Positions 6,425 through 33,954 of a stretch of DNA of 46,870 nt are shown here, in pieces. The notes beneath the pieces were generated by a model. That model made no database searches. It saw only the letters and a program-made list of their open reading frames with translations, and had not been told where the DNA came from. The DNA lies in the NCBI GenBank assembly GCA_020445945.1, contig JAGRFQ010000018.1:4089-50958 (forward strand). The letters are read 5' to 3'. The position numbers were made by a program, and so were the translations under genes. This stretch comes from Rhodocyclaceae bacterium. Its GTDB lineage: Bacteria; Pseudomonadota; Gammaproteobacteria; Burkholderiales; Rhodocyclaceae. Every line of letters begins with the position of its first letter. Within the stretch, counting starts at the first letter, position 1.

Positions 6425-6440
6425 TGTGATGTGCGTCACG
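6425..6440. promoter_or_regulatory. Candidate CRP/Vfr-like site
   Basis: TGTGA-TGTGCG-TCACG matches the CRP consensus TGTGA-N6-TCACA at 9 of 10 fixed positions. It lies 97 bases before the sugar transferase ATG. A -10-like TACAAT is at 6500-6505 but has no good -35, which would suit an activator-dependent promoter. The assignment rests on motif match only. Confidence 0.35.
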
Positions 6441-6536
6441 GGGGCTTCATGGCCGGTCAGGTATTGTTTCGTCCATAGAAGTTCAACCCGGTCGCGCGGT
6501 ACAATCCGCGCCGCCGAAGAAGAGCCGAGACGCGCA

Positions 6537-7919: not shown

Positions 7920-7972
7920 CGCCGGAGTTCTTGGCCACGGCCCTAGAGGGGGTTCGCCGTTTCAGGTGACCG

Positions 7973-10051
7973 ATGATTCCTGATTTCACGCATGTGGCAG
8001 CCTGGGGCTATGTCCTGGCTGCCATTGCGTTTTTCCTCTTCAGTCTGTATGTCGCAGCCGCATCGCGAGGGCGGGGCGCTGGCGGTGCCTTGCTGCTCGC
8101 AACTGGCGCCAGCACGGCGTGGTGCGTTGCCTGTGCCGCCTTGATCGCCGAGGTGCCGTATGCCGGTGCGGTGTCGGCGCTGCTGTCGGTGGTGCGGGAT
8201 GCGGCCTGGCTGTGGTTTGTGCTGCGCCTGATCCTGCGCATCGACAGCGGAAAACGGCAGTGGCCGATGCAGGCCATGGTGCTGATTGTCGCGGTGCGCG
8301 CGATCATGGTTGTGCTGGTGCTGCTGGCCGTGCCGTTGCCGTTCAATGCGGCCAACGGGTCGATCTTTGCCCAGCTGCTTACCGCAGTGTTCTTCCTCGT
8401 GCTCACCGAGCAGCTCTATCGGTTGCTCCCCTCGGAGTCGCGCTGGGGGCTCAAGCCGTTTTGCCTGGCCCTGGCCGCGGCGTCGGTTTTCGATCTCTAC
8501 CTCTATGCCGACGCCTTCCTGTTCGGGGTCATCGATCGTGATATCTGGAGTATTCGCGGATTGGCTCACGCGCTGGTGTTGCCGCTGATTGCAATGTCGG
8601 CGGCGCGGGTGCCCGGCTGGGCGGTGCGTCTGTCGGTGTCGCGGGAGCTGGTGTTCCATTCGACCGCGCTGGCCGTGTCCGGGCTGTATCTGCTGATCGT
8701 CGCTGCGGCGGGCTATTACGTGCGCTATTTCGGCGGGGACTGGGGGCGCGCGCTTCAGGTCACGCTGCTGTTCGCGGCGCTGCTCTTGCTGGGTGTGGTC
8801 GTGTTTTCAGGTGCCCAGCGGGCGCGCCTGCGTGTGCTGCTCAACAAGCATTTCTTTCCCTATCGCTACGATTACCGGGCCGAGTGGTTGAAGTTTACCC
8901 GCGCGCTTGCCGCGCACGAGGATTACCAGGATTTGGGGCAGGCGGCGATCGCCGCCCTGGGCGATCTGGTGGAAAGCGCTGGCGGTGGCTTGTGGCTCGA
9001 CGACGGGCACGGCAGTTTCGTGATGCGTGCCCGTCTCAACACGCCAGAGGTGACGGCCCAGGAACGCGCGGACGGCGATCTGTGCCGCTTCCTCGCGGGA
9101 GAGGGGTGGGTGTTCAACCTCGAAGAATTCCGCATGCGTCCGAAAACCTATGGCGATCTGAAGCCGCCGCGTTGGCTGTCGGAGATGCCGGATGCGTGGC
9201 TTGTGGTGCCGTTGATTGCGGGCGAGGCAATGATCGGGTTCGTGGTCTTGCTGGCCCCGCGTACGCCGCTTGAGATCAACTGGGAAGTGCTCGACCTGTT
9301 GAAGACGGCGCAGCGTCAGGCGGCAAGCTATCTGGCACGCATGCAGGCGGCCGAAGCGCTGATCGAAGCGCGCAAGTTCGACGCCTTCAACCGGATGTCG
9401 GCCTTCGTCGTCCACGATCTCAAGAATCTGGTCGCCCAGTTGTCGTTGATGCTCAAGAATGCCGAGCGCTACAAGGATGATCCCGAGTTCCAGGCCGACA
9501 TGCTCGAGACCGTGGCGCATGTCGAGAAGAAGATGCGCGATCTGATGCAGCAGTTGCAGAAGAAAACCGCGATCGAGCGCGACCGGCCGGTCGAGCTGGG
9601 CGAAATGCTCGATCGGGTCTGCCGATCCCGCGCGCACATGAAGCCGTCGATTTCATTGACGCTGGCGGACGACGCGATATGGGTCCGTGCCAATGCCGAA
9701 CGCCTTGAGCGGGTGGTCGGCCACATCGTGCAAAATGCCCTCGACGCCACCAACGACGATGGTATGGTGACTGCATGTCTGCGCAGGGCCGGTGACGCTC
9801 AGGCGGTGATCCAGGTGAGCGATACGGGAAGCGGCATGAGCGCCGAGTTTGTCCGCGACCAATTGTTCAAGCCGTTCCAGACGACCAAGTCGAGTGGCAT
9901 GGGGATCGGCGTTTTCGAGGCGAGGCAATATCTGCGTGAGTTGGGAGGCGACATCCGGGTGACGAGCACGCTTGGCGCGGGCACCACCATGGACATTCTG
10001 CTCCCGGCGCCCCGACAACTGGGGCGCGAACGTTCCGATGCGAATTCATGA
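7973..10051 (+). CDS. prsK: PEP-CTERM system sensor histidine kinase PrsK
   Basis: 692 residues. About the first 290 form a multi-helix membrane region, followed by a GAF-like domain (about 310-460) and a kinase core. The phosphoacceptor is His481 in FVVHDLKNLVAQLSLML. The ATP-binding motifs are HIVQNALDATND (N box), VSDTGSGM (G1) and SSGMGIGVFEARQYLRELGG (G2 region). The layout and length match PrsK, the kinase co-occurring with EpsH/XrtA exosortases. The stop overlaps the prsR start by ATGA, making a coupled two-component pair. The signal sensed is unknown. In Zoogloea, PrsK/PrsR with RpoN have been linked to expression of PEP-CTERM proteins and floc formation. Confidence 0.92.
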   Translation: MIPDFTHVAAWGYVLAAIAFFLFSLYVAAASRGRGAGGALLLATGASTAWCVACAALIAEVPYAGAVSALLSVVRDAAWLWFVLRLILRIDSGKRQWPMQAMVLIVAVRAIMVVLVLLAVPLPFNAANGSIFAQLLTAVFFLVLTEQLYRLLPSESRWGLKPFCLALAAASVFDLYLYADAFLFGVIDRDIWSIRGLAHALVLPLIAMSAARVPGWAVRLSVSRELVFHSTALAVSGLYLLIVAAAGYYVRYFGGDWGRALQVTLLFAALLLLGVVVFSGAQRARLRVLLNKHFFPYRYDYRAEWLKFTRALAAHEDYQDLGQAAIAALGDLVESAGGGLWLDDGHGSFVMRARLNTPEVTAQERADGDLCRFLAGEGWVFNLEEFRMRPKTYGDLKPPRWLSEMPDAWLVVPLIAGEAMIGFVVLLAPRTPLEINWEVLDLLKTAQRQAASYLARMQAAEALIEARKFDAFNRMSAFVVHDLKNLVAQLSLMLKNAERYKDDPEFQADMLETVAHVEKKMRDLMQQLQKKTAIERDRPVELGEMLDRVCRSRAHMKPSISLTLADDAIWVRANAERLERVVGHIVQNALDATNDDGMVTACLRRAGDAQAVIQVSDTGSGMSAEFVRDQLFKPFQTTKSSGMGIGVFEARQYLRELGGDIRVTSTLGAGTTMDILLPAPRQLGRERSDANS

Positions 10052-11409
10052 CTGAAAAACAACGCACATTGATGGTGGTTGAGGACGATCCGGCGCTGCA
10101 AAAGCAGATGCGCTGGGCGTTTGGCGATTTCGAAACGGTGCTGGCCAGCGACCGGGAAAGTGCCATTGCCCAGTTGCGGCGCCATGAGCCGCCCGTTGTT
10201 ACCATGGACCTGGGCCTGCCGCCCGAGCCGGATGACGTGAGCGAAGGCTTCAAGCTGCTCGAGGAAATGCTTGCGCTGGCCCCCGATACGAAAGTCATCG
10301 TGCTCACCGGGCAGCACGACCGCGACAACGCCGTGCGTGCGGTCGGCCTCGGCGCCTACGACTTCTTCGCCAAACCGTTCGAGCCTGAATTGTTGACCCT
10401 GACCATCGACCGGGCCTTCCGGCTCTACGATCTGCAGCGTGAGAACGCGCGCCTCAAGGCAGAAAGCGGTGCCGCACTCGAAGGCGTGCTGACGCGCGAT
10501 GCCGGCATGCTCAAGGTGTGTCGCACGGTTGAAAAGGTCGCTTCGGCAAACAATGTGACCGTGGCCTTGCTCGGCGAGAGCGGGACCGGCAAAGAGGTGC
10601 TGGCGCGGGGGCTGCACATGTTGTCGGCGCGTGCCAAGCAGCGCTTCGTGGCGATCAACTGCGCGGCAATTCCCGACACGCTCCTTGAAGCCGAGCTGTT
10701 CGGTTACGAGAAGGGGGCATTTACCGGCGCCGTAAAGCAGACGCCCGGCAAGATCGAGACCGCCGACAAGGGCACCTTGTTCCTCGACGAAATCGGCGAC
10801 CTGCCCATGCCGCTGCAAGCCAAGCTGCTGCGTTTCCTGCAGGAGCGGGTGATCGAGCGGATTGGCGGGCGCAGCGAAATTCCGGTCGACGTGCGTGTTG
10901 TCTGCGCCACCCACCAGCACCTCAAACGCTTGATCGAAGAAGGCCGCTTCCGCGAAGATCTTTATTACCGGTTGGCCGAAATCGTGATCGACATCCCGCC
11001 GCTGCGCGATCGCCCCGGCGATGCCAGTCTTCTGGCGCATGCCTTCGTGCAGCGTTTCGCCGACGAAAACGGTCGCAGCAGCATGCGTCTGGCCGATGAC
11101 GCCGTCAGCGCAATCGAAGCGCATGGCTGGCCGGGCAATGTGCGTGAGCTTGAAAACTGCGTCAAGCGCGCAGTCATCATGGCCGACGGCAATCGCGTCA
11201 GCGCCGAGGACCTCGGTCTGGACGCGCAAGACGCGTCGCTCGACATGCTCAATCTGCGTCATGTGCGCGAAGCCGCCGAGCGCAGTGCGGTGAGCAGTGT
11301 ATTGTCCCGGGTCAATGGAAACATCGCGCGTGCGGCGGAAGTCCTCGGCGTCAGCCGCCCGACACTCTACGATTTGATGAATCGCTACGGAATCAAGAAG
11401 GAGGCCTGA
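10048..11409 (+). CDS. prsR: Sigma-54-dependent response regulator PrsR
   Basis: 453 residues, NtrC type. The receiver (5-125) has the phosphoacceptor Asp54 in VVTMDLGLPP. The AAA+ domain has Walker A GESGTGKE (176-183), the sigma-54 contact loop GAFTGA (223-228) and Walker B GTLFLDEIGDLP. The C-terminus is a Fis-type helix-turn-helix ending NIARAAEVLGVSRPTLYDLM. All parts needed for activating sigma-54 RNA polymerase are intact. The gene is coupled to prsK upstream and lies 2 bases before prsT. The sigma-54-like element before the PEP-CTERM gene at 32912-33898 is a natural candidate target, by inference. Confidence 0.94.
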   Translation: MTEKQRTLMVVEDDPALQKQMRWAFGDFETVLASDRESAIAQLRRHEPPVVTMDLGLPPEPDDVSEGFKLLEEMLALAPDTKVIVLTGQHDRDNAVRAVGLGAYDFFAKPFEPELLTLTIDRAFRLYDLQRENARLKAESGAALEGVLTRDAGMLKVCRTVEKVASANNVTVALLGESGTGKEVLARGLHMLSARAKQRFVAINCAAIPDTLLEAELFGYEKGAFTGAVKQTPGKIETADKGTLFLDEIGDLPMPLQAKLLRFLQERVIERIGGRSEIPVDVRVVCATHQHLKRLIEEGRFREDLYYRLAEIVIDIPPLRDRPGDASLLAHAFVQRFADENGRSSMRLADDAVSAIEAHGWPGNVRELENCVKRAVIMADGNRVSAEDLGLDAQDASLDMLNLRHVREAAERSAVSSVLSRVNGNIARAAEVLGVSRPTLYDLMNRYGIKKEA

Positions 11410-11411
11410 CC

Positions 11412-14207
11412 GTGCCCACTCGAAACGCCACGCTTCGCCCACATCGCTTGAGTCGCCTGATGACCGTGCTTCTGGCCGGCGCCTTGCTGGTCGGGTGCGG
11501 CAGCAACCCCGATGAGATGGTGGCCTCCGCCAAAGATTATCTGGCACAGAAGGACTACAGCGCAGCGACGATCCAACTCAAGAATGCCTTGCAGGAAAAG
11601 GGTGACCTCGCGGAGGCGCGATACCTGCTCGGGCGGGTCTACTTCGACCAAGGTGACTACGCAAGTGCCGAGAAGGAGTTGTCGCATGCCGCGCGCGTGG
11701 GATTCCGGCCGGATGAAGTGTCCCCGCTGCTGGCCCAGGCGATGCTCAAGCTCGGCAAGGCAAAGGCGCTGGTCGAGGCATTTGCCGATTCTGCGCCGAT
11801 GCTGACAGACACCAGCGCCAGAGCGCGTGTCCTTACCGCGCTCGGCGATGCACGGTTTGGCCAGAGCCGGGATGCAGCGACCAAAGACTATCGCGCGGCA
11901 CTTGAAGCGGATCCTGACAATGCGTTGGCTGCGCTGGGCCTGGCACGCGCGACGGCTGCGGATGGTAACCGGGAGGCAGCATTGGCGCAGGTAGACGCCA
12001 TCCTTGGTAAACATCCGGAGGTTTCCGAGGCGCACGTGCTGCGCGGGCAATTGCTGTTTTCGTTGAACCGCACCGATGATGGACTTGCCGCACTGGCCTC
12101 CGCGCTGCAACACAACCCGAAAGACCAGGTGACACACCTGTCATATGTCAGCACATTGCTGACAATGAAGCGGATTGAGGATGCCGAAGCCGGGCTAGCG
12201 GCCATGAAAAAGGGCGTTGGTGACACCCCGGTTGCACGCTACCTCCAGGCATATGTTGACTTCGCGAAGGGCAATGCCAAGGCTGCGCGTGACAGCTTGC
12301 AGACGGTACAAAACGTCATCCCGGATTTCATGCCCGCCAATCTGCTGGCCGGCGCAGTGTACTTTCGGCTGAACGACCAGACTCAGGCGCAGGCCAATCT
12401 GAATCGTGTGCTGTCGGTGGCGCCGGGGCACGTCGCGGCACGGCGCTTGTTGGTAATGTCCTATCTGGCGCAACGTGACGCTGTTCGCGCCAAAGACGCC
12501 ATTGCACCGTTGATTGCGCAGTACCCGGACAACGCGGAGGTCTTGTCCCTCGCCGGGCAGGTATATCTGCTTGCAGGGGATTTCGAGCAATCCTCCGCCT
12601 ACCTTGGCAAGCTGGTCACCCAGCAACCCGAGGATTCGCGTGCACGCACCCGGTTGGGGATTGCCCAGTTGGCGCAAGGCAACCTGGAGCGTGGTTTGGC
12701 GGACCTCTCCGTAGCCAGTGAACTCGATGAAACGCAAGGGTATGCCGACTTTGCGATCGTGACCACCTTGATGCGCAAGGGCGAGTTCGACAAGGCGCTC
12801 GCTGCAAACAAAGCGTTGGCAAAGAAGGTGCCCGACAGTCCGCTGGTGTTCAATCTCGAGGGGGGCATTCTGCTGGGCAAGGGCGACGTTGCCGGGGCCC
12901 GTTCGGCGTTTGAGAAAGCGCTGGAAATTCAACCGGATTTTCTGGCTGCGGCCACCAATCTGGCGCGGCTGGATCTTCGCGATAGCAAACCGGATGCAGC
13001 GAGTGCGCGCTTTGCCGGCATCCTGGCCAAAAATCCAAAGCATGTCGGCGCGCATTTGGCGCTGGCTGAACTGGCAATCGTCCAGAAAGGTGATCCGGCC
13101 GTGATTCGGTCGCATCTCGACAGTGCCATCGCCGCCGCGCCGGATGCGGTTGCGCCGCGGCGTCAGCTGATTGGCTACCTGCTGCAGACCAAGCAACCCA
13201 AGGACGCCTTGGGGGTCGCGCGCGAGCTCGAGGCCGTCGCACCCGACAACCCTGACACCATGCGCTTGTTGGCCATGGCACAGCTTGCCACGGGTGATTT
13301 CGAGCAGGCTGTGGCCAATATGAACCGGCTGGTTACGGTCATGCCGGGGCGTGCCGATGTGTTGCTCGATCTGGCGCGGGCTCAGCTTGCGGCCAGCGAC
13401 CCCCGTTCCGCCGTACAGTCGCTGGACAAAGCGCTCACCATTCAGCCGGAATTCATTGAAGCGCGGCGCCTGCGGGTCAGCCTGATGCTCAAGGAAAAGC
13501 AGTTTGACGCGGGTGTCGCGTCGGCGCGTGAATTACAAAAGCTTGCGCCGAAGGTGGCGGATGGGTTCGCGTTGGAGGGCGACGCCGAGGCGGCGCGGGG
13601 AGAATGGGCAAAGGCGCTGGGGCCCTTCCGTCAGGCCTTCACTTTGGCGCCGTCGAGTACGGCCGTCATCAAATTGCATGCAGCGCTGTCTCGGGTTGGC
13701 AAGCGTGGCGAGGCTGAGACTCTACAGAAAAAATGGCTCAAGGATTCGCCGGACGACTTGCCCGTCCTGACCTATCTTGCCGAGCAGTCCTTGGCCGCGA
13801 ATCAGTTGAAAGACGCAAAAACCTATTATCTGGCGGTGCTTCGCAGCGCGCCTGATTCCGCGGTGGTGCTCAACAACCTGGCCTGGGTTGCCGACAAATT
13901 GGGCGATCCTGAGGCGGAAGGCTACATCGCCCGGGCGCTGGCGTTGGCGCCCGAAAGTCCGGCAGTCCTGGATACCGCGGGGATGATGGAGATTCAGCGC
14001 GGCAAGATCGATACGGGGCTGGCCAAACTCGAAAAGGCGCACCAGTTGGCACCGGATGCTCTGGCTATCACGATTAATCTTGCCCAATCGTATCGCGCGG
14101 CAGGGAAGTCTGATGCAGCGCGGAAACTGTTGACCGACGCACGGGCGGCACTCCCGGCCGGGAGCCCCGCGATCGAGAAGCTCGATGCCCTGCTCGCCGC
14201 GAAGTAG
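11412..14207 (+). CDS. prsT: PEP-CTERM system TPR-repeat lipoprotein PrsT
   Basis: 931 residues, close to the family's usual size of about 900. GTG 11412 is chosen because AAGGAGG ends 7 bases upstream; an ATG at 11460 would cut the signal sequence short. The lipobox LVGC gives a lipidated Cys29, so the protein should sit in the outer membrane or the periplasmic face of a membrane. The rest is a near-continuous array of tetratricopeptide repeats, for example QKDYSAATIQLKNALQEKGD and TNLARLDLRDSKPDAASARF. Probable role: a scaffold for exopolysaccharide or PEP-CTERM protein export; the partner is not known from sequence. It follows prsR by 2 bases, so transcription with prsKR is likely. Confidence 0.92.
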   Translation: MPTRNATLRPHRLSRLMTVLLAGALLVGCGSNPDEMVASAKDYLAQKDYSAATIQLKNALQEKGDLAEARYLLGRVYFDQGDYASAEKELSHAARVGFRPDEVSPLLAQAMLKLGKAKALVEAFADSAPMLTDTSARARVLTALGDARFGQSRDAATKDYRAALEADPDNALAALGLARATAADGNREAALAQVDAILGKHPEVSEAHVLRGQLLFSLNRTDDGLAALASALQHNPKDQVTHLSYVSTLLTMKRIEDAEAGLAAMKKGVGDTPVARYLQAYVDFAKGNAKAARDSLQTVQNVIPDFMPANLLAGAVYFRLNDQTQAQANLNRVLSVAPGHVAARRLLVMSYLAQRDAVRAKDAIAPLIAQYPDNAEVLSLAGQVYLLAGDFEQSSAYLGKLVTQQPEDSRARTRLGIAQLAQGNLERGLADLSVASELDETQGYADFAIVTTLMRKGEFDKALAANKALAKKVPDSPLVFNLEGGILLGKGDVAGARSAFEKALEIQPDFLAAATNLARLDLRDSKPDAASARFAGILAKNPKHVGAHLALAELAIVQKGDPAVIRSHLDSAIAAAPDAVAPRRQLIGYLLQTKQPKDALGVARELEAVAPDNPDTMRLLAMAQLATGDFEQAVANMNRLVTVMPGRADVLLDLARAQLAASDPRSAVQSLDKALTIQPEFIEARRLRVSLMLKEKQFDAGVASARELQKLAPKVADGFALEGDAEAARGEWAKALGPFRQAFTLAPSSTAVIKLHAALSRVGKRGEAETLQKKWLKDSPDDLPVLTYLAEQSLAANQLKDAKTYYLAVLRSAPDSAVVLNNLAWVADKLGDPEAEGYIARALALAPESPAVLDTAGMMEIQRGKIDTGLAKLEKAHQLAPDALAITINLAQSYRAAGKSDAARKLLTDARAALPAGSPAIEKLDALLAAK

Positions 14208-17346: not shown

Positions 17347-17453
17347 GGAGGGTGCGGGACCGGGGCGGAGTCTACCGTGAAATGTGCGTTTGCCGAAGGG
17401 ATCGCGGCGGCAAGGCGTAAAATGCGGCTTCTTTTCTGGTAGTGGATGGTGTT

Positions 17454-19352
<1,899 letters not shown>

Positions 19353-26217: not shown

Positions 26218-26970
26218 TCAGCGCGGTGGGCTGCTGCTTGCGTTGATCTGTGCTTCTACCGCCCGCCAGATCGGCTTCACCATGAAGCGCAGCCCCTTGA
26301 TGATCGACTGGACATCCATCATCGACGGCACGCGAATTCCGCGGTGGTCGACCGGTCCGCCGATCTGGGTGAGATCCACGCCGAGTTTGGAGAAGTGCGA
26401 GGCGAGGCGCGGTTCGGTGAGTACAAACAAGGTATCGACGTCGTTGCGTACGGCCAGCGCCACGGCCCCCAGATACAGCCCAATGGGGATGTAGGGGAAG
26501 CGCGGTTGCTCGTCGCTGGCGTTGTAGTCGTCATCATTGATTGCGACCGCCACGTGCTTTTCTCCGCGCCGGCGCCGATACGCCGAACGCACCGCCAGGC
26601 GCGAGACCTCTGCGATACGCCGCCGGTCCAGTTTGGCCGGGTCGATGATCGAGCGATCGAGCGTCTTCGCGCAGGTTTCCTCAAAGGGCAGGGGGGCGGC
26701 GAGGTCGGCGGGGTTGGCCAGCACCAGGCGGGTACAGCCGACCGGCGGGTGCGGCGCCGAGGCGCCGCGTAGCAGGCAATGCACGCTATGTGAGTCGTAG
26801 CGATCAGTCTCGCGGCGGTCGGGGCGCTCGGGTTCGAACTTCAGTTCTTCGCAGTACACCTCGTGGCGCACCCGGAACACATCGTCGCGAACGCGTTCGT
26901 TGCTTGCGGCCTCAATCTGAAAATATTTCTTGAAGCCAGCACCCAGGTTGAAACGATCGAACAGTGACAT
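26218..26970 (-). CDS. PEP-CTERM/exosortase-associated acyltransferase
   Basis: 250 residues from ATG 26970, preceded by GAGGAG. An N-acyltransferase of the LuxI/FeeM-like fold. Visible landmarks are RVRDDVFRVRHEVYCEELKF (typical start of autoinducer synthase-like enzymes), DSHSVHCLLR, VGCTRLVLANP, RRRIAEVSRLAVRSAYRRRR and PYIPIGLYLGAVALAVRND. The match is to the family found only in genomes with exosortase and PEP-CTERM proteins. Likely reaction: transfer of a fatty acyl group from acyl-ACP or acyl-CoA to an amino acid or amine; the acceptor is unknown. It is 25 bases downstream of the second FtsX-type permease gene and probably cotranscribed with it. Confidence 0.85.
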   Translation of the reverse strand: MSLFDRFNLGAGFKKYFQIEAASNERVRDDVFRVRHEVYCEELKFEPERPDRRETDRYDSHSVHCLLRGASAPHPPVGCTRLVLANPADLAAPLPFEETCAKTLDRSIIDPAKLDRRRIAEVSRLAVRSAYRRRRGEKHVAVAINDDDYNASDEQPRFPYIPIGLYLGAVALAVRNDVDTLFVLTEPRLASHFSKLGVDLTQIGGPVDHRGIRVPSMMDVQSIIKGLRFMVKPIWRAVEAQINASSSPPR

Positions 26971-26995
26971 GATGACTCCTCGCGGTGGTTCCCGC

Positions 26996-28210
26996 TCAGA
27001 CGCCTTGGCGCAATGCGTCGACAATGGGCGTCTTCGCAGTCCGTCGTGCTGGAAAGACGGCGGCCAGCACTGTCGCGACCAGGCCGATGAAGAAGGCTGA
27101 TGCGACGGTTGCCGGTACGACCCGGATGAATGCGGTATAGCCGATATTGGCGTTTGGTGGTGGTGGCATCGGGATGCCGATGGCCGACACGGCGAGCGCA
27201 ATCCCGACGCCGGCAATGACGCCGAGCGTGGCGCCGATCAGACCCAGCAGCGCGTTTTCGATCAGGAGAAGCCGGAACACTTCGAGCGGGCGGTTGCCAA
27301 GCGCCTGCATCGTGCCGAACTCGCTTTGGCGCTCGAAGACGTTCATGTTGACGCTGTTGACGACGGACAGGAGAACCATCGCGAGGATGATGAATTGCAG
27401 GATGCCGAACTGGCGCTCATACAGTTGGACGGTTTTCTCGTAAAAATCTGAGAGTTGCCGCCAATGGCGTGCCTCGAGCGGGCGCTCGCCCAGGCGTGAG
27501 GCAATGGCCGCGTGGGCGCGGTCCGTATCCTCCGTTCGATGCAGTACGGCGACCAGGAGGTTGGCCCCAGAGGTGCCCATCAGTTGCTGGGCGGCCAATA
27601 GCGGAATGCGGATCGCGCGTGCGTCGAAGTCTTGCGAAAAGCTCTGGAAAACGCCGACGAGTTTGAATTCCATGGTGTTCAATGCGCCGGCGGCGGTATT
27701 CATCACCAATGTGACCCGGTCGCCCACCTTGAGGCCGAGGCTTTTGGCGACGCCTTGTCCAGCCATCATGCCGAACGCGTCGTCTGCATTGAGCGCACGG
27801 CCTTCGGAGATCTTCAGGTAGGCGCTCAGTGCAGCTTCTTTTTCTGCCTCAACGCCTTCGCCGATGATCGGCTGATCCCTGCGCCCGTTGTTGAGCAGGC
27901 CGGCAAAGCTGAGTCGCGCGGAAATTTGTTTGACGCCCGGCGTGCGGGCAAGCGCTGTGCTCAGGTTCTGCGCGTCGTCAATCAGAAATTTTTCAGGGTG
28001 ACGGGTGCCACGTTCGAAGAAGCCTTTTCGAAACACCTGAACATGGCCGGTCTGCGATTGAACGACGGCGTCGCCAAGCTGGATGAAGACGTCCTGGATG
28101 AAGCCGCCGGAGACAATCAGCCCGGCGACGCCGAAGACGATCGCCGCCAGGGTCATGGCGGTGCGCCCTTTCTGGCGGAAAACATTGCGAAGTGCGAGTT
28201 TCAGGAGCAT
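26996..28210 (-). CDS. FtsX/MacB-type ABC transporter permease (second)
   Basis: 404 residues from ATG 28210; an in-frame GTG at 28219 overlaps the stop of the upstream gene. Topology: one helix near the N-terminus (MTLAAIVFGVAGLIVSGGF), a large periplasmic MacB-like domain (about 45-275), then three helices with the FtsX signature FERQSEFGTMQALGNRPLEV, ending FPARRTAKTPIVDALRQ. Such permeases power extraction of lipids, lipoproteins or peptides from the outer face of the inner membrane, driven by a separate ATPase. No ATPase gene lies in this operon. The partner is the homologous permease 5 bases upstream. Confidence 0.85.
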   Translation of the reverse strand: MLLKLALRNVFRQKGRTAMTLAAIVFGVAGLIVSGGFIQDVFIQLGDAVVQSQTGHVQVFRKGFFERGTRHPEKFLIDDAQNLSTALARTPGVKQISARLSFAGLLNNGRRDQPIIGEGVEAEKEAALSAYLKISEGRALNADDAFGMMAGQGVAKSLGLKVGDRVTLVMNTAAGALNTMEFKLVGVFQSFSQDFDARAIRIPLLAAQQLMGTSGANLLVAVLHRTEDTDRAHAAIASRLGERPLEARHWRQLSDFYEKTVQLYERQFGILQFIILAMVLLSVVNSVNMNVFERQSEFGTMQALGNRPLEVFRLLLIENALLGLIGATLGVIAGVGIALAVSAIGIPMPPPPNANIGYTAFIRVVPATVASAFFIGLVATVLAAVFPARRTAKTPIVDALRQGV

Positions 28211-28215
28211 CAGGG

Positions 28216-29460
28216 TCACCGTTGGTGGCGCAGCGCGTCGACAACGTTCATGCGCGAGGCCTTCCATGCCGGAAAAATGCTCGCGGCAAGTGTTGTGACA
28301 ATCGCCAGGCTCAGCGCGTCGATGCTCAGTTCGGTCGATATCTGTATCTCGCCAAGGTAGCCGGTGGTCATGCCGGGTGGTGGTGGCATGGGAATGCCGA
28401 CCGCAGAGATGAGTTCGCCAAGCACGAGGCCAATGGCCGTGCCGCCGATACCGCCGACCACGCCGACCACGAGCCCTTCGAGAACAAACAGCCGCAAGAT
28501 GCTGCTGCGCCGAACGCCGAGGGCCATCGAGGTGCCGATTTCGTTGGTGCGCTCCATGACGGCCATGGTCATCGTGTTGGAGATGCTCAGAATGACGATG
28601 AGGGCGATGAGCAGCCGGACGATGCCGACCTGCTTGCCAAACAGCTCGACTGTCTTGTTGTAGAAGTCGGCCAGGTCGGTCCACGGAATGATCTCGAATT
28701 CTGCGGGATCGAGGTCCTGCCGGAAGCGGGTGACGGCGTCTGTTGTATGCTCCGTCTCGGCGAGCAAGATTGCCCATGACGTTGCGCCTTCGACGTCCAT
28801 CAGCGTTCTTGCCAGCGTGATGGGCGCCCGCAGCACGCTGTCGTCGTAGGCCTTGGCGACGGTGACGAAAATGCCCGCGACACGTGCCTCGACGGCGTTG
28901 ATGCGACCGTGTTGCGTTGTGGCGAGCAGTACCAGCGTGTCTCCGACATGTGCGTCGATGCTTGCCGCGAGCCCCTGTCCAAGCAGAAGCGAGTTTGGTG
29001 CGCTCTCGGTCAGGTCCTTGCCTTCGACGATGTTGATTTCGTCGGTGATCGGCGCCTCCTGGATCGGATCGATCCCCTCCCCGAGAAACGAGACGGTCGC
29101 GTCTGCTTTGCTCAGCAGACCGCTGAACGCAAGGCGGGGGGCAACGGTCTTCACGTCCGGGATGCGGCGGATTTGCTCGGCCTGCTGCGCAGCGGCGGGC
29201 AGAAGATGGTTGTAGGGGTCACCCAACCCTTCAGAAAAATAGCCCGGGCGCGTTATTTGTATATGTCCGAGCTGCGAATGAATGGTGGCTTCGCGCATAC
29301 TGACAAGGACCCAGTTGATGAAACCGCCGGCCAGCAAGAATGCAATCACGCCGCTACCGACGGTTGCCAGCGCGAGGAGCGAACGCCTCCGGTGGCGCAG
29401 CATGTTCCGCGTCGCGAGCTTGACATCCTGTATCAAAGAAGTGGAAGTAAGGCGCCACAT
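28216..29460 (-). CDS. FtsX/MacB-type ABC transporter permease (first)
   Basis: 414 residues. An N-terminal helix (SLLALATVGSGVIAFLLAGG) is followed by a periplasmic domain (about 55-290) and three helices with MERTNEIGTSMALGVRRSSI and FPAWKASRMNVVDALR at the C-terminus. It shares the motif GIPMPPPP between the last helices with its downstream partner, showing that the two are paralogues and likely form a heterodimer. It is the first gene of a leftward operon (permease, permease, acyltransferase) and is divergent from thiF across 68 bases. The ATPase must come from elsewhere. The substrate is unknown. Confidence 0.85.
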   Translation of the reverse strand: MWRLTSTSLIQDVKLATRNMLRHRRRSLLALATVGSGVIAFLLAGGFINWVLVSMREATIHSQLGHIQITRPGYFSEGLGDPYNHLLPAAAQQAEQIRRIPDVKTVAPRLAFSGLLSKADATVSFLGEGIDPIQEAPITDEINIVEGKDLTESAPNSLLLGQGLAASIDAHVGDTLVLLATTQHGRINAVEARVAGIFVTVAKAYDDSVLRAPITLARTLMDVEGATSWAILLAETEHTTDAVTRFRQDLDPAEFEIIPWTDLADFYNKTVELFGKQVGIVRLLIALIVILSISNTMTMAVMERTNEIGTSMALGVRRSSILRLFVLEGLVVGVVGGIGGTAIGLVLGELISAVGIPMPPPPGMTTGYLGEIQISTELSIDALSLAIVTTLAASIFPAWKASRMNVVDALRHQR

Positions 29461-29528
29461 GGTGGTGTTTTCATTGAATGGGCTTCCCTATGATAACGGC
29501 TTGGGGTCTAAGTAGTTGAGGGTTCCGA

Positions 29529-30416
29529 ATGGATATGGGCTTTGATTACAACACGGCGTTTTCCCGCAACATCGGCTGGGTTACAGAGGCGGAACAAGAC
29601 GCGCTGCGCCACAAAAAAGTGGCGATTGCAGGGCTCGGCGGCGTTGGCGGGAGCCATCTGCTGACCTTGGCGCGTCTGGGCGTTGGCGCGTTCAGCATTG
29701 CGGATTTCGACACCTTCGATGTCGTCAATTTCAACCGGCAGGCCGGCGCGATGGTGTCGACCTGCGGTCGCCCGAAGGTGGAAGTGCTGGCCGAGATGAG
29801 TCGTGATATCAACCCGTCAATCCGGCTCAATGCATTCCCGCAGGGCGTTACGCAAGAGAATCTGGCGGCGTTTCTGGACGGCGTTGACCTCTACGTGGAT
29901 GGCCTCGACTTCTTCGCATTCGATATACGGCGGGCCGTGTTTTCGGCATGTCATGAGATGGGCATTCCGGCGATTACCGCTGCGCCTTTGGGGTTGGGCG
30001 TCGCCTTCCTGTACTTTGACCCCGATGGAATGTCATTTGAGGAGTACTTCTGCATGGACGGTTGCGATGACGCAGAGATGGCGCTGCGTTTCATGCTCGG
30101 GTTGTCCCCGGCCATGCTTCAGCGCAACTATCTTGCCGACCCGTCCCGGGTTGATCTGGCAGGGCACAAAGGACCATCGAGTATCGCCGGATGCCAGCTA
30201 TGCGCCGGTGTCATCGCGGCCGAAGCCTTGAAGCTGTTGATCAATCGCGGCGACGTCATTGCCGCACCGCGCGGCTATCAGTTCGACGGCTACCGCAACC
30301 GGTTCACAAAAACCTGGCGGCCCGGCGGAAACCGCAACCCGCTGCAGCGCATTGGTTTGTGGGTGGCCCGGCGGCAGCTCGCCAAAATGCGTGGTGCCGC
30401 GAGGAGGGGGCAATGA
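29529..30416 (+). CDS. E1-like ThiF/MoeB-family adenylyltransferase
   Basis: 295 residues. The ATP-binding loop GLGGVGG (35-41) is followed by ADFDTFDVVNFNRQ (58-71), with the acidic residues and the Asn/Arg that E1-like enzymes use to bind ATP and magnesium. A C-terminal SIAGCQLCAGVIAAEALKLL (Cys222, Cys225) matches the family's late helix. Only one CxxC is present plus CMDGC near 176-180, so a classical zinc site is doubtful. The C-terminal 45 residues are basic. E1-like enzymes activate carboxylates, often the C-terminus of a ubiquitin-like protein. No ThiS, MoaD or other small carrier is encoded beside it, so it is not an ordinary thiamine or molybdopterin gene. It overlaps the next gene by ATGA. 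Confidence 0.85.
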   Translation: MDMGFDYNTAFSRNIGWVTEAEQDALRHKKVAIAGLGGVGGSHLLTLARLGVGAFSIADFDTFDVVNFNRQAGAMVSTCGRPKVEVLAEMSRDINPSIRLNAFPQGVTQENLAAFLDGVDLYVDGLDFFAFDIRRAVFSACHEMGIPAITAAPLGLGVAFLYFDPDGMSFEEYFCMDGCDDAEMALRFMLGLSPAMLQRNYLADPSRVDLAGHKGPSSIAGCQLCAGVIAAEALKLLINRGDVIAAPRGYQFDGYRNRFTKTWRPGGNRNPLQRIGLWVARRQLAKMRGAARRGQ

Positions 30417-31495
30417 GCCAACAGGAGACACTGCTCCGAATTCTCGAATTGGCGCGCTGGGCTCCGAGTGGGGATAACACGCAGCCGTGGCGGTTCGAGA
30501 TATGCGGCGATCTTCGCGTCGCTGTTCACGGGCTCGATACCAGCGATTGGTGTGTCTATGATTTTCGGGGGCACCCTAGCCACATGGCGCACGGGGCATT
30601 GCTTGAGACCATGCGTATTGCCGCAAGCGACGAGGGCTTGAAGATGCGCTGGTGCCTCCGTGAAGGGCAAGCGCAGAACGCGCCGATTTACGACGTCGAG
30701 TTCGAGCGCGATGGCAACATAACATCGGATCCATTGGTATCCTGCATTCGCCGCCGCGTCGTTCAGCGGCGACCGATGCGCACGACACCACTCACGCTCA
30801 GCCAGAGAGAAGCCCTTGCGAATGCCGCTGGGGACGACTACGAAGTCGATTTCCTGGAACGCCTGCCACAGCGCTGGGCGGTGGCGCGCGTCCTGTGGGG
30901 GAGTGCGTACCTGCGCTTGATCTGCCGCGAAGCATACGAGGTGCACCGACGGATCATCGAATGGGGCGTACAGCATAGCGAGGACAGAATTCCGGAAGCT
31001 GCCGTGGGTGTCGACGCGGCGACCGCGAAGTTGATGCGTTGGGCGATGGGAGACTGGAAGCGCGTTAGCTTCTTCAATCGCTACCTGATGGGCACTGTTG
31101 CGCCCAGGATCCAGCTGGACCTAATTCCAGCACTGGCATGTGCAGCGCATATCGTCATCAAACCCCGTTCGGGTTTGGACACGGCGGCCGACTTTGTTGC
31201 GCTGGGCTGCGCGATGCAACGCGTCTGGTTGACCGCCGCCCATATGGGCCTTCATATGCAGCCTGAAATGACGCCGGTCATCTTTCGCTGGTATGCGCGC
31301 ACTGGTGACCCCATTTCGCGCCAGGCAGAAGTTGAATCCGGTGTCCGCGATGTGGCGCGCGCATTCGAGACCCTTTTGGGCATCTCGGAATCTGACCCGG
31401 TCGGGTTTTTTTGCCGGATCGGTGTGTCACGGGGGCCGACTGCGCGTTCTTTGCGATTGCCGATTGATGATCTGATGCGGCAGCGAGCGGGCTAA
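30413..31495 (+). CDS. Nitroreductase-like FMN oxidoreductase (long form)
   Basis: 360 residues from ATG 30413, preceded by GAGGAGG and overlapping the thiF stop. The N-terminus LLRILELARWAPSGDNTQPW is the FMN-binding start of the nitroreductase fold. RRRVVQRRPMRTTPL and a later ALGCAMQRVWLTAAHMGLHM continue the fold. At 360 residues it is much longer than classical NfsB-type enzymes (about 200) and closer to the Acg-like group. The substrate is unknown. Translational coupling to the E1-like gene suggests the two act in sequence. I recall actinobacterial proteins annotated MoeY (Rv1355c) that combine ThiF and nitroreductase-like parts in one chain, which would support a joint function. Confidence 0.8.
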   Translation: MSQQETLLRILELARWAPSGDNTQPWRFEICGDLRVAVHGLDTSDWCVYDFRGHPSHMAHGALLETMRIAASDEGLKMRWCLREGQAQNAPIYDVEFERDGNITSDPLVSCIRRRVVQRRPMRTTPLTLSQREALANAAGDDYEVDFLERLPQRWAVARVLWGSAYLRLICREAYEVHRRIIEWGVQHSEDRIPEAAVGVDAATAKLMRWAMGDWKRVSFFNRYLMGTVAPRIQLDLIPALACAAHIVIKPRSGLDTAADFVALGCAMQRVWLTAAHMGLHMQPEMTPVIFRWYARTGDPISRQAEVESGVRDVARAFETLLGISESDPVGFFCRIGVSRGPTARSLRLPIDDLMRQRAG

Positions 31496-31499
31496 AGCG

Positions 31500-32714
31500 A
31501 TGGGTTCACGACCACTTCGCGTCCTTGTTTTTTGTGAAGGAGCAACGCTCGCACACATTACACGGCCGTTGGCATTGGCGGAATTGCTGCCAGATACCGA
31601 ATACGAGATTCACTTGGCTATCCCATCGTCTTTTGAGTGGGTCGCGCAAAAATTTGTTGGGACCAGGCACTACATTGAATGTCAGTCCAGTGAAGTTTTT
31701 GCGCGACGATTAGCCAAAGGTGCTCCCCTGTATGACTATGAGACGTTGGTCGGCTATGTTACCGACGATCTGGCGCTGATCTCCCGTGTTGTGCCCGATG
31801 CGGTTGTTGGCGATTTCCGCATTTCTCTGTCGGTCAGTGCGCGGCTTGCGCGAATTCCTTATCTTGCGATTTCTGATGCCTATTGGTCATCCGCGCACCC
31901 AACGCGTATGCCGATGCCCGTATTGCCGGGCACCGCGCGTGTACCGTTGGCGCTCAGTGGAGCCATTTTCAAGCTGCTGGCTCCTGCGGTAGTCAAGCTC
32001 CACACCTGGCCAATGAGCCAACTTCGAAAGAAATTCTCTCTCCCGCCACTGAGTGAAGGGCTGTCGCAGGTTTACCAAGATTCGGATTGCACGATGTTTG
32101 CAAATATCCCGTCCCTCTTTCCCGATGTAGTCTCTATCAACGAGGGGCGATTTGTTGGCCCGCTGTCCTATGCGCTGCCATGTGAGGTGCCGGACTGGTG
32201 GGACAGCATCCCTCCGCGTGAAGAGTGTACGTTTATTTGTTTGGGAAGTTCCGGCGACATTGGGGCATTGCAGTGTTTGACCGACGCGGTTTGCGCTTCT
32301 GGAAAGGCGGCGATTGTGGCGACTGCAGGGCGCGCGCATCTGCCGCATGCGCCCGAAAGGCGCAGGTACGTTGCGGATTATCTCCCAGGCGAAATCGCAT
32401 GCCGCGCAGCGTCACTGGTGATCTCCAACGGTGGAAGTCCGATGAGTCAATTAGCGCTGTCTTGTGGTGTTCCTGTGCTTGGCGTCCCAACCAATATGGA
32501 TCAGTTCCTCTGCATGTCGGCGATTGAGCGGGCTGGCATGGGCGCGTTAGTTCGTTCGGATCGGTGTTCTGCCGCAACGATCGGTGCGGCGCTCAGGCGC
32601 TTTTCCGCTTCGCCAGATCTGGCTCAACATGCGGCGACGGTGTATCGAGAGATGGATCGCGCTGCGTGTTACGCAAACCTTCACGCATCCATTGCTTCGC
32701 TGTGCGCTCAGTAG
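31500..32714 (+). CDS. GT-B glycosyltransferase (UGT/MGT-like)
   Basis: 404 residues. The N-terminal Rossmann-like domain starts LRVLVFCEGATLAHITRPLA. The C-terminal domain has the nucleotide-sugar-binding region SNGGSPMSQLALSCGVPVLG followed by PTNMDQFLCMSAIERAGMGA, the family 1 pattern with His replaced by Asn at the first position. There is no signal peptide. Such enzymes glycosylate small molecules, polyketides or lipids. It follows the nitroreductase-like gene by 4 bases. Base composition is visibly lower in G+C than its neighbours (28 of 60 in row 31621-31680), a possible sign of transfer. Donor and acceptor are unknown. Confidence 0.8.
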   Translation: MGSRPLRVLVFCEGATLAHITRPLALAELLPDTEYEIHLAIPSSFEWVAQKFVGTRHYIECQSSEVFARRLAKGAPLYDYETLVGYVTDDLALISRVVPDAVVGDFRISLSVSARLARIPYLAISDAYWSSAHPTRMPMPVLPGTARVPLALSGAIFKLLAPAVVKLHTWPMSQLRKKFSLPPLSEGLSQVYQDSDCTMFANIPSLFPDVVSINEGRFVGPLSYALPCEVPDWWDSIPPREECTFICLGSSGDIGALQCLTDAVCASGKAAIVATAGRAHLPHAPERRRYVADYLPGEIACRAASLVISNGGSPMSQLALSCGVPVLGVPTNMDQFLCMSAIERAGMGALVRSDRCSAATIGAALRRFSASPDLAQHAATVYREMDRAACYANLHASIASLCAQ

Positions 32715-32806
32715 GGCACGCGCTGGCAGGGGTGGGTGCGTGGTAGGAGGCAGTATTTCATGTGCGCGCTGCTTCTGGCTTTGAGCAGTGCGAGAGCCAA
32801 GGCAGA

Positions 32807-32838
32807 ACAAAGCCCCGGCCAGAAAGCCGGGGCTTTGT
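32807..32838. terminator. Bidirectional intrinsic terminator
   Basis: A perfect 13-bp stem ACAAAGCCCCGGC/GCCGGGGCTTTGT with a 6-base loop stands between two converging genes, the glycosyltransferase and the PEP-CTERM gene. The stem's A-run and T-run flanks let it work on both strands. Confidence 0.85.
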
Positions 32839-32911
32839 CAGCAGTCTGTAGCCCGCTACGAAGAAGGGCTTCAGGGTAACCGGCCAGATGCGCCGATTAC
32901 ACGACCACGTG

Positions 32912-33898
32912 TTACGACTTTTTGCGACGGACGGCGCCCGCTGCAAGAAGACCAAGGCCAACGAGTGCCATCGAGGTTGGCTCCGGTACCGGGAAGGCCG
33001 TTGTTGCACGGGTCTGGAACATGGTGTTGGTACCATTTACACCGTTGAAGCTGCCAATCGTGCCAAAGTCACTCGCAACGCCGCAGCCATTGGCAATGCC
33101 ATTGCCCGCGCCGGTGAAGTAAGCCGCGCCATCCCAGAAGCAGCTGGACGGATCCGTTTGCTGGTAAGGCAAATTCTGGAAGGTGTCCGTGACGATGTTC
33201 AGGGTCAGGAAGCTCAGGTCGGTGAGGAAATAGGTGTTGTCAAAGCTGTCGACCGTCACCGTGATGCTGCCGCCGCCCGTCCCCGAAACGGTCTTGTAGT
33301 CCGTATAGTTATTGGCGTTGAACTGATCCAGATCGTTATTCGGGTTGGCCGCCGAACTGTTGAAGCTTGTCTGGCCCGCGCCGGTCAAGGCGTTGAAATC
33401 CGCTATGGTACCGCTCAGGATCTTGATGGCGCCGCCATCCCCATTGAATCCCTTGCCCGACAGGTTCAGCGACGCGTCGCCGCCAACCCAGATTTCAAAA
33501 AAACTGGAGGCGCTGTTGGTGGTGCGGAAAACGCGGTTGCTTGAAGAGCCCGCGTCGGATGCGGTCGTGACCACTTCGTCAAAACCGAACACATAGGTCC
33601 AGTTGGCGGGGTTGGTGGCGACAAAGATATTGTTGCCATTCGCGTCGTTGAAGCCTTGCAATGCCGCATGGCCATAGGTACGGATGGTGTCGCCGGTAGC
33701 CGTGCCATTCACCGTACCGTTCGTCGTTTGCAGGGGGGTGGAGATGGCGTTGCCATTGTTCCAGCCCAAGGCTGAAACGTCGATCGCGTCGACGCCGCCA
33801 GCTCCATCCGGGTCGATCAAAAGGGCGTGGGCACTCCCTGCAGCCATGATGCCGGTGCTGGCGACTGCGAGGGCGATGAGAGATTTCTTGATGGTCAT
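32912..33898 (-). CDS. PEP-CTERM sorting domain protein
   Basis: 328 residues. Sec signal peptide (KKSLIALAVASTGIMAAGSA, cleavage near residue 25). The mature part is rich in Asn, Gly, Thr and Ser, as is usual for secreted surface proteins of this class. The last 25 residues are a complete PEP-CTERM tail: VPEP, a hydrophobic helix and RRKK at the end. Family knowledge: exosortase (XrtA/EpsH type) cleaves at the PEP motif and the protein goes to the surface or matrix. The central domain is not recognised and contains only two Cys (SSCFW and NGCGV). A sigma-54-type promoter and an IHF-type site precede it. AAGGAA serves as ribosome binding site. Members of this class are implicated in flocs and biofilm. 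Confidence 0.92.
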   Translation of the reverse strand: MTIKKSLIALAVASTGIMAAGSAHALLIDPDGAGGVDAIDVSALGWNNGNAISTPLQTTNGTVNGTATGDTIRTYGHAALQGFNDANGNNIFVATNPANWTYVFGFDEVVTTASDAGSSSNRVFRTTNSASSFFEIWVGGDASLNLSGKGFNGDGGAIKILSGTIADFNALTGAGQTSFNSSAANPNNDLDQFNANNYTDYKTVSGTGGGSITVTVDSFDNTYFLTDLSFLTLNIVTDTFQNLPYQQTDPSSCFWDGAAYFTGAGNGIANGCGVASDFGTIGSFNGVNGTNTMFQTRATTAFPVPEPTSMALVGLGLLAAGAVRRKKS

Positions 33899-33936
33899 TT
33901 GAGTTCCTTTGTATCAAGGTGGTTGCGCCCATCATA

Positions 33937-33954
33937 TAGCACGCTCTGTGCCAA
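33937..33954 (-). promoter_or_regulatory. Sigma-54 (-24/-12) promoter of the PEP-CTERM gene
   Basis: On the minus strand TTGGCACAGAGCGTGCTA matches the -24/-12 consensus TTGGCAC-N5-TTGCA, with the invariant GG and GC at the required spacing and G for T at the start of the -12 box. Transcription would begin near 33928, giving a leader of about 30 bases to ATG 33898. The sigma-54 activator PrsR encoded at 10048-11409 is the expected partner. Confidence 0.75.

Follow-up and report, generated by a model that had tools for sequence, protein, structure and literature searches.

A probable acyl-oxazolone pathway tied to the exosortase and to a dedicated envelope exporter in a Rhodocyclaceae bacterium

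What do six tightly packed genes make together when they join an exosortase-type acyltransferase, two permeases, a ThiF-like enzyme, a nitroreductase-like enzyme and a glycosyltransferase? The genes lie at positions 26218–32714 of a 46,870-nucleotide stretch of a Rhodocyclaceae genome (assembly GCA_020445945.1, contig JAGRFQ010000018.1, positions 4,089 to 50,958; "the window" refers to this whole stretch). An earlier annotation made from the letters alone, the sequence-only reading, had described two tightly packed divergent arms and proposed that they make, glycosylate and export an acylated small molecule or lipid. We confirmed all six open reading frames (ORFs) at their positions in two divergent arms 68 bases apart: leftward the acyltransferase and the two permeases, separated by gaps of 25 and 5 bases, and rightward the ThiF, nitroreductase-like and glycosyltransferase genes, with a 4-base overlap followed by a gap of 4 bases. 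Computation established the protein families, the order of the genes, their co-occurrence, the predicted folds and a naturally occurring fusion of three enzymes; on this basis we consider it probable that the locus encodes an acyl-oxazolone pathway that is associated with the exosortase and has an envelope exporter of its own. In the best reading, the product is probably a glycosylated N-acyl dehydroamino-acid oxazolone, or the ring-opened acid, serving the exosortase/exopolysaccharide (EPS) system. The general idea of the sequence-only reading is supported and becomes specific here, as an exosortase-linked pathway to an acyl-oxazolone or ring-opened dehydro-lipid. Two likely points go beyond it, namely that the three core enzymes correspond to a known acyl-oxazolone synthetase set and that the exporter draws its ATPase and outer-membrane partner from the exosortase locus. 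The chemistry is of a known type, and the tie to the exosortase and to a dedicated lipid exporter is the new part.

The enzyme core

The acyltransferase (26218–26970, minus strand; 250 aa from the ATG at 26970, the 332-aa ORF call beginning too early) is an N-acyl amino acid synthase (NAS) of the PEP-CTERM/exosortase-associated type: it scored 258 bits against TIGR03694 (cut-off 112) and 33.1 bits against Pfam FeeM (cut-off 27), and the same genome encodes an exosortase (247 bits, contig C86). The LuxI/FeeM fold that the sequence-only reading gave for its family agrees with the predicted model (pLDDT 87.8), which matches the acyl-homoserine lactone synthases BjaI, TofI and LasI as well as FeeM (2g0b). 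Residues R35, E54, D59, R81, E121 and R124 are invariant across 21 aligned sequences, that of the window included.

The ThiF protein (29529–30416, plus strand) belongs to the NF006077/PRK08223 family (466.8 bits, cut-off 266), in which the glycines that bind the nucleotide, together with R70, K83, D124 and D127, do not vary among 23 sequences; the alignment drew on 22 of 25 relatives, three (L018, L021 and L028) having been excluded for an internal stop flagged in the matched stretch. When the family profile was compared to the PDB, the tRNA t6A dehydratase (TcdA), ThiF and MoeB came first, and TcdA/CsdL, the best sequence match, covered profile positions 20–150 of 286. TcdA/CsdL carries out an ATP-driven intramolecular cyclodehydration of a carboxylate, acting on tRNA.

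The third enzyme (30413–31495, plus strand; 360 aa) matches the Nitroreductase family PF00881 with 42.5 bits, and the top PDB fold for its predicted model (pLDDT 90.7) was 2ymv, an Acg homologue (E 7.5e-14, the next at 3.3e-5). By this predicted fold it appears to be a flavin oxidase of the Acg/FDO type, a predicted alpha,beta-desaturase, rather than a plain NAD(P)H nitroreductase. The Rv1355c-family model, whose cut-off of 476 bits applies to a fused protein, gave 68 bits for the ThiF protein and 106 bits (C-terminal model) for the oxidase. The two genes are adjacent and overlapping, as expected for an acyl-oxazolone synthetase. A RiPP (ribosomally synthesized and post-translationally modified peptide) or azoline reading of the E1-like enzyme and the nitroreductase was considered and set aside; no YcaO or precursor gene was found among the annotated families, no search having been aimed at these.

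Published sets with the same three functions serve as reference points, as described in excerpts of the papers cited. TyzA N-acylates Tyr/Phe, the ThiF protein TyzB cyclises the product with ATP, and TyzC desaturates it with O2 (PMC10404671). Like the window, TyzABC comprises three separate genes for a LuxI/FeeM-fold N-acyltransferase, a ThiF cyclase and a nitroreductase-superfamily flavin oxidase, with the acyltransferase on the opposite strand and a transporter gene, mmpL9, nearby (PMC10404671). Unlike in the window, exosortase, LolC/E-like permeases, a LolA-like carrier, DUF1302 and a glycosyltransferase go unmentioned in those excerpts, and the envelope is actinobacterial. TrzA and the fused TrzS perform the same chemistry for tryptophan, and the closest structure for TrzS is 2ymv (PMC12856293), the same as for the window oxidase. 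OxzAB of Pseudoalteromonas rubra (de Rond et al. 2021, as described in PMC10404671) combines an N-acyltransferase with ThiF and nitroreductase functions to make acyl-oxazolones; OxzB is a ThiF-nitroreductase fusion, whereas the window has separate genes in a locus with permeases and a glycosyltransferase. By family, the TIGR03694 synthase, the PRK08223 ThiF protein and the Acg-like oxidase appear to match these sets (OxzAB, TyzABC, TrzAS). Because the same three functions make acyl-oxazolones elsewhere, the trio is best read as a three-gene acyl-oxazolone synthetase, and we hold this reading of the enzyme core with considerable confidence.

The strongest alternative, which we regard as possible but clearly less favoured, is that the end product is an open-chain N-acyl 2,3-dehydroamino acid of the kyonggic, thalassotalic or stieleriacine type, secreted as a surfactant or signal. 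The oxazolone would then be a transient intermediate that enables desaturation, and the exosortase linkage would reflect a shared use in biofilms. In Thalassotalea, Massilia and Stieleria, NasY, ThiF and nitroreductase genes go with dehydrotyrosine acids, and according to the excerpts these producers showed no oxazolone (PMC12479983), so the end product may be open-chain here as well; oxazolones are also easily hydrolysed (PMC12856293). These clusters share the trio with the window, and that of Stieleria comes with PEP-CTERM and EPS genes (PMC12479983, PMC7293339). They differ in the methyltransferase tailoring seen in Stieleria, and a Lol-like or MMPL export module is unmentioned in the excerpts. 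On the other hand, the enzymes published for this set do release oxazolones (PMC10404671, PMC12856293), and an exporter with a LolA-like carrier and an outer-membrane partner is a better match for a lipid embedded in the membrane than for a surfactant in solution. We retain the oxazolone as the preferred product of the core enzymes.

Conservation of the trio was assessed in two samples. The named set consists of the top 80 loci among 488 confirmed relatives from a scan of GTDB genomes and is thus biased to near relatives; it includes Thauera, Azoarcus, Zoogloea, Nitrosospira, Janthinobacterium and Methylomonas, 48 of its loci have 6 kb on both sides, and the neighbourhood was taken as about 10 kb around ThiF. 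The sampled set covers 274 genomes of the class, of which 26 (own included) encode a PRK08223 protein over the cut-off, leaving 25 sampled loci without our own; 54 comparison genomes were picked across the 248 genomes under this cut-off before exosortases were looked up. Genes were counted with custom HMMs built from the 25 sampled loci, with a scoring rule by which weak acyltransferases are lost. The oxidase was found near ThiF in 66/80 named loci, fused to it in 18, and a recognised NAS in 54/80 (41 through the window-type model, 17 through the FeeM type). At least one permease was present in 30/80, a pair in 25, and the DNA fetched for the 25 sampled loci held an oxidase in 16, an acyltransferase in 17 and a permease pair in 6. 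A permease stands divergently adjacent to ThiF in 18/80 named and 2/25 sampled loci, which argues that the arrangement is not due to chance; the two arms are neighbours in related genomes as well, as the sequence-only reading needed them to be. Azoarcus, Thauera and others repeat the order acyltransferase-permease-permease / ThiF-oxidase, as does Parazoarcus, where two genes separate ThiF from the oxidase. Plasmid pDVUL01 of Nitratidesulfovibrio vulgaris encodes a single 989-aa protein that combines a FeeM domain (150 bits), a ThiF domain (168 bits) and a nitroreductase domain (35 bits); on its flanks lie PEP-CTERM proteins and XrtA genes of the chain-length, export and glycosyltransferase kinds.

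Janthinobacterium and Duganella, which belong to the family of the kyonggic acid producer Massilia, carry the ThiF-oxidase pair, a distribution that favours the open-chain alternative. In 10 Janthinobacterium, Duganella and Rugamonas loci, the acyltransferase was not recognised near ThiF; one Janthinobacterium family (N2) was considered as an unrecognised acyltransferase and rejected, two of the three members scanned being PEP-CTERM proteins and one lacking a Pfam match. Other variants were seen among the relatives. Three Zoogloea loci (L079, L080, L088) have acyltransferase and ThiF genes, and no oxidase was found over about 10 kb around them; in L088, ThiF is followed by a gene for a cation efflux protein. 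Such loci would make a saturated ring or a different product. In L048 (5339–6583), a weakly TIGR03694-like domain near ThiF is joined to a CRP-like cyclic-nucleotide-binding domain. The family recurs in L045, L051, L101, L108, L117 and L126 (domains were checked in L048), and by analogy with published NAS-PilZ proteins it raises the question of regulated lipid synthesis. The 48-kb Bdellovibrio plasmid pBdHAGR2 (L153) carries a 46% identical ThiF relative, preceded by ABC ATPase, permease and hypothetical genes.

Export and tailoring

Permease 1 (28216–29460, 414 aa) and permease 2 (26996–28210, 404 aa), both on the minus strand, have the MacB_PCD and FtsX domains of ABC exporter permeases. Their nearest named models are LolC/E, at 113 bits well under the cut-off of 362, while another LolCE match in the same genome reached 476 bits, which disfavours a housekeeping role for the window pair. 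Permease 2 shows 53–91% identity in the 22 best matches listed among the named relatives.

Two export modules occur with the trio: module A, a permease pair, a LolD-like ATPase, a LolA-like protein (PF17131) and a DUF1302-type outer-membrane protein, and module B, an MMPL pump with the LolA-like and DUF1302-type proteins. The modules are alternatives in many loci, and a permease and an MMPL pump were found together in none of the 80 named and none of the 25 sampled loci; the mycobacterial tyz genes near mmpL9 provide a parallel to module B (PMC10404671). One relative (L085) combines the trio, XrtA operon genes and the ABC set in one compact cluster. In our genome there is no ATPase beside the permeases, and on contig C86 a LolD-like frame and a DUF1302-type gene adjoin the XrtA operon. 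With these two genes in the exosortase locus, the permeases are apparently completed from there, and their ATPase and outer-membrane partner are likely the exosortase-locus genes. The LolD-like frame reaches the end of C86, the point at which a LolA-like gene starts in the nearest relative. Two other candidates, one for the ATPase and one for the carrier, were rejected: the ABC protein at 17442–19352 of the window is a duplicated 636-aa protein of the ABC-F type, and a LolA-like candidate on contig C17 (32 bits, cut-off 30) adjoins an MMPL-like gene and barely matches the custom LolA model.

A second alternative is that the permeases export lipoproteins or lipid-modified proteins, a protein cargo as in LolCDE, and that the trio makes a lipid modification of surface proteins. 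The best named matches of permeases and ATPase are indeed the LolC/E and LolD models (under their cut-offs), the carrier is LolA-like, and PEP-CTERM proteins are encoded close to the locus. We nevertheless consider a protein cargo unlikely, given the low LolCE score next to the far better match elsewhere in the genome and the replacement of the permeases by an MMPL pump in other loci. MMPL pumps are known for lipids, which favours a small lipid as cargo. That a lipid is exported by a dedicated envelope exporter is, in our assessment, reasonably likely.

The glycosyltransferase (31500–32714, plus strand; 404 aa) is a GT-B, GT1-like enzyme with an EryCIII-like C-terminus (33.5 bits) and CalG1 as its best PDB sequence match. 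Its family (E up to 1e-20) was found in 6/26 PRK08223 genomes, own included, compared to 0/54 others (p 8e-4, or 2e-3 without our genome; relatedness is ignored in all such tests here), and it directly follows the oxidase in L098, L099 and L144. L068, the nearest relative, instead has an unrelated GT4 together with a PIG-L deacetylase behind the oxidase. At the nucleotide level, identity to L068 is about 78–82% over the acyltransferase, permeases and ThiF and 66% over the oxidase, is absent over the glycosyltransferase and the PEP-CTERM gene behind it, and is 82–97% beyond, so that the stretch from the oxidase to the PEP-CTERM gene differs as one unit. The region 30400–33900 resembles a recombination-like swap, with identity falling at the ThiF/oxidase boundary and recovering later. 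The GC content of the glycosyltransferase gene (0.561) is below that of its neighbours. Methyltransferases of one family lie near ThiF in 8/80 named loci. A hexapeptide-repeat transferase family, possibly a further tailoring enzyme, lies near ThiF in 10/80 (L098: 9372–10040, where the domain was checked; also L073, L099 and L144). We read the tailoring slot as exchangeable and filled by sugar transfer in this strain, to an acceptor proposed below; whether the product is glycosylated is in our estimate an even call.

The link to the exosortase

An exosortase (PF09721) was found over the cut-off in 25/26 PRK08223 genomes, own included, compared to 18/54 others (Fisher p 3e-8; 24/25 and p 8e-8 without our genome), and TIGR03694 in 20/26 compared to 6/54 (Fisher p 8e-9). 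The claim that the acyltransferase family is restricted to exosortase genomes was too strong, an exosortase being over the cut-off in 21 of the 26 genomes that have TIGR03694 among the 80 genomes compared. The proposed N-acyl amino acid derivative linked to PEP-CTERM is a good fit. N-acyl amino acid synthases were reportedly tied to PEP-CTERM/exosortase by Craig et al. 2011, as cited by others; the window has the same kind of acyltransferase and the same exosortase tie, to which cyclase, oxidase and export genes are added. Over about 10 kb around ThiF, 17/80 named and 11/25 sampled loci have XrtA/PEP-CTERM genes of a strict set (export, Wzz, BBP2, ATPase and kinase genes). Including strong PrsT matches raised these counts to 35/80 and 17/25, and the loosest rule to 44/80 and 18/25; counts were repeated without PrsT because its model can match other TPR proteins. 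PEP-CTERM proteins are also found near ThiF and the oxidase in L070, L071, L073 and L128.

In the window, a PEP-CTERM protein (32912–33898, minus strand; PF07589, 28.9 bits) follows the rightward arm as context rather than as a pathway enzyme, and XrtA/PEP-CTERM genes (TIGR03013 glycosyltransferase, PrsK, PrsR and PrsT; 6426–14207, plus strand) lie at least 12 kb from the arms. A sigma-54 link of the arms to PrsK/PrsR was rejected, since no good site lies between them and the scan upstream of ThiF in relatives was little above shuffled sequence: with a crude -24/-12 matrix typed from recall, 6/63 upstream of ThiF exceeded all 20 shuffles, and 10/55 upstream of the permease and 8/64 upstream of the oxidase beat all shuffles, counts on which we place no interpretation. 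A good -24/-12 (sigma-54-like) site was seen at 33938–33953 (minus strand), 40–55 bases upstream of the PEP-CTERM gene, compatible with control of that gene, not of the arms, by PrsK/PrsR.

That the ThiF protein is instead a sulfur-carrier or ubiquitin-like E1 (thiamine, molybdopterin) lying beside lipid genes by chance is suggested by its place in the ThiF/MoeB superfamily and is very improbable, since it reached 97 bits against the curated ThiF model (cut-off 275), has relatives fused to the oxidase or FeeM in the loci described above, has no fully conserved cysteine column in its family (the best three hold 21, 15 and 20 of 23), unlike a zinc-type sulfur-carrier E1, and, in agreement with the partnerless E1-like gene of the sequence-only reading, had no ThiS/MoaD-family match listed within 20 kb in the 26 PRK08223 genomes (the nearest at 26.6 kb, in G223), all of which have ThiS-family matches somewhere. 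It stays a candidate cyclase.

Besides the oxazolone-free producers discussed above, several observations weigh against the proposed pathway. No oxidase was in reach in 14/80 named loci (8/48 with 6 kb on both sides) and no recognised acyltransferase in 26/80 (14/48). In the permease loci, a LolD-like gene was in reach in 14/30 named and 6/6 sampled loci and a LolA-like gene in 12/30 and 6/6, the named figures being the unfavourable ones. The A4-type LolA-like carrier was not found in our 87%-complete genome and was present in 10/10 relatives searched, two of which (L085 and L111) had contributed rows to the LolA-like and LolD-like query alignments. The glycosyltransferase occurs in just 27/80 named loci and the 6/26 positive genomes, 6/26 PRK08223 genomes lack TIGR03694 over the cut-off, and one of the 26 (G098, in 560 contigs), which has TIGR03694, lacks an exosortase match. 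In the window itself, no XrtA gene lies within 10 kb of ThiF, and the crude matrix gave no -24/-12 site above 12 bits in the 68-base intergenic region (29461–29528) with its presumed divergent promoters. Finally, two unrelated mutants in the LW13 study gave the same band defect (PMC11072679), so the band phenotype is not specific.

Proposed pathway and its meaning

We infer the substrates, product, sugar and acceptor, as well as cargo and direction of transport, as follows. The TIGR03694 enzyme would transfer a fatty acyl group from ACP or CoA onto the amine of an amino acid that is most likely aromatic, and the ThiF protein would close the ring. The flavin oxidase would desaturate the alpha-beta bond using O2, in an uncertain order relative to cyclisation, and the GT1-like glycosyltransferase would attach a sugar; with tyrosine as the amino acid, the phenol oxygen would be the probable site. 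The exosortase locus would supply the LolD-like ATPase that drives the two LolC/E-like permeases in pulling the lipid out of the inner membrane, and its outward transport would fall to a periplasmic carrier of the LolA-like kind and to the outer-membrane protein of the DUF1302 type. The product, or the ring-opened N-acyl dehydroamino acid, would act at the cell surface with the exosortase/EPS machinery.

Published data fit a role of this kind by analogy. The N-acyl tyrosine cluster of Stieleria has a PEP-CTERM gene and EPS genes in or beside it (PMC7293339), and in the LW13 study complementation undid the mutant defects, two unrelated mutants behaved alike and planktonic growth was slightly faster (PMC11072679); together these data lend plausibility to a role of the lipid at the surface or in the matrix. 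In the open-licence literature, we found no report of the exosortase-oxazolone-exporter combination, which may be in print elsewhere; PEP-CTERM, ThiF and nitroreductase were not found together there, and exosortase and oxazolone were co-mentioned solely in unrelated senses. A bolder and quite unlikely idea makes the lipid, as a glycosylated oxazolone carried to the surface, the partner that the exosortase has been missing: it would either be the lipid anchor to which PEP-CTERM proteins are attached after exosortase processing or, as a reactive azlactone, acylate amine groups on EPS or on surface proteins and thereby fasten the matrix to the cell envelope.

For the probable acyl-oxazolone pathway, the locus offers candidates for the next enzymes (cyclase, desaturase and sugar transfer) and a candidate exit route, so that the lipid of exosortase bacteria, and the dependence of EPS on a lipid, become testable questions. 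The presence of Zoogloea, Thauera and Accumulibacter among the relatives suggests that acyl-oxazolone chemistry may be common in floc- and biofilm-forming bacteria.

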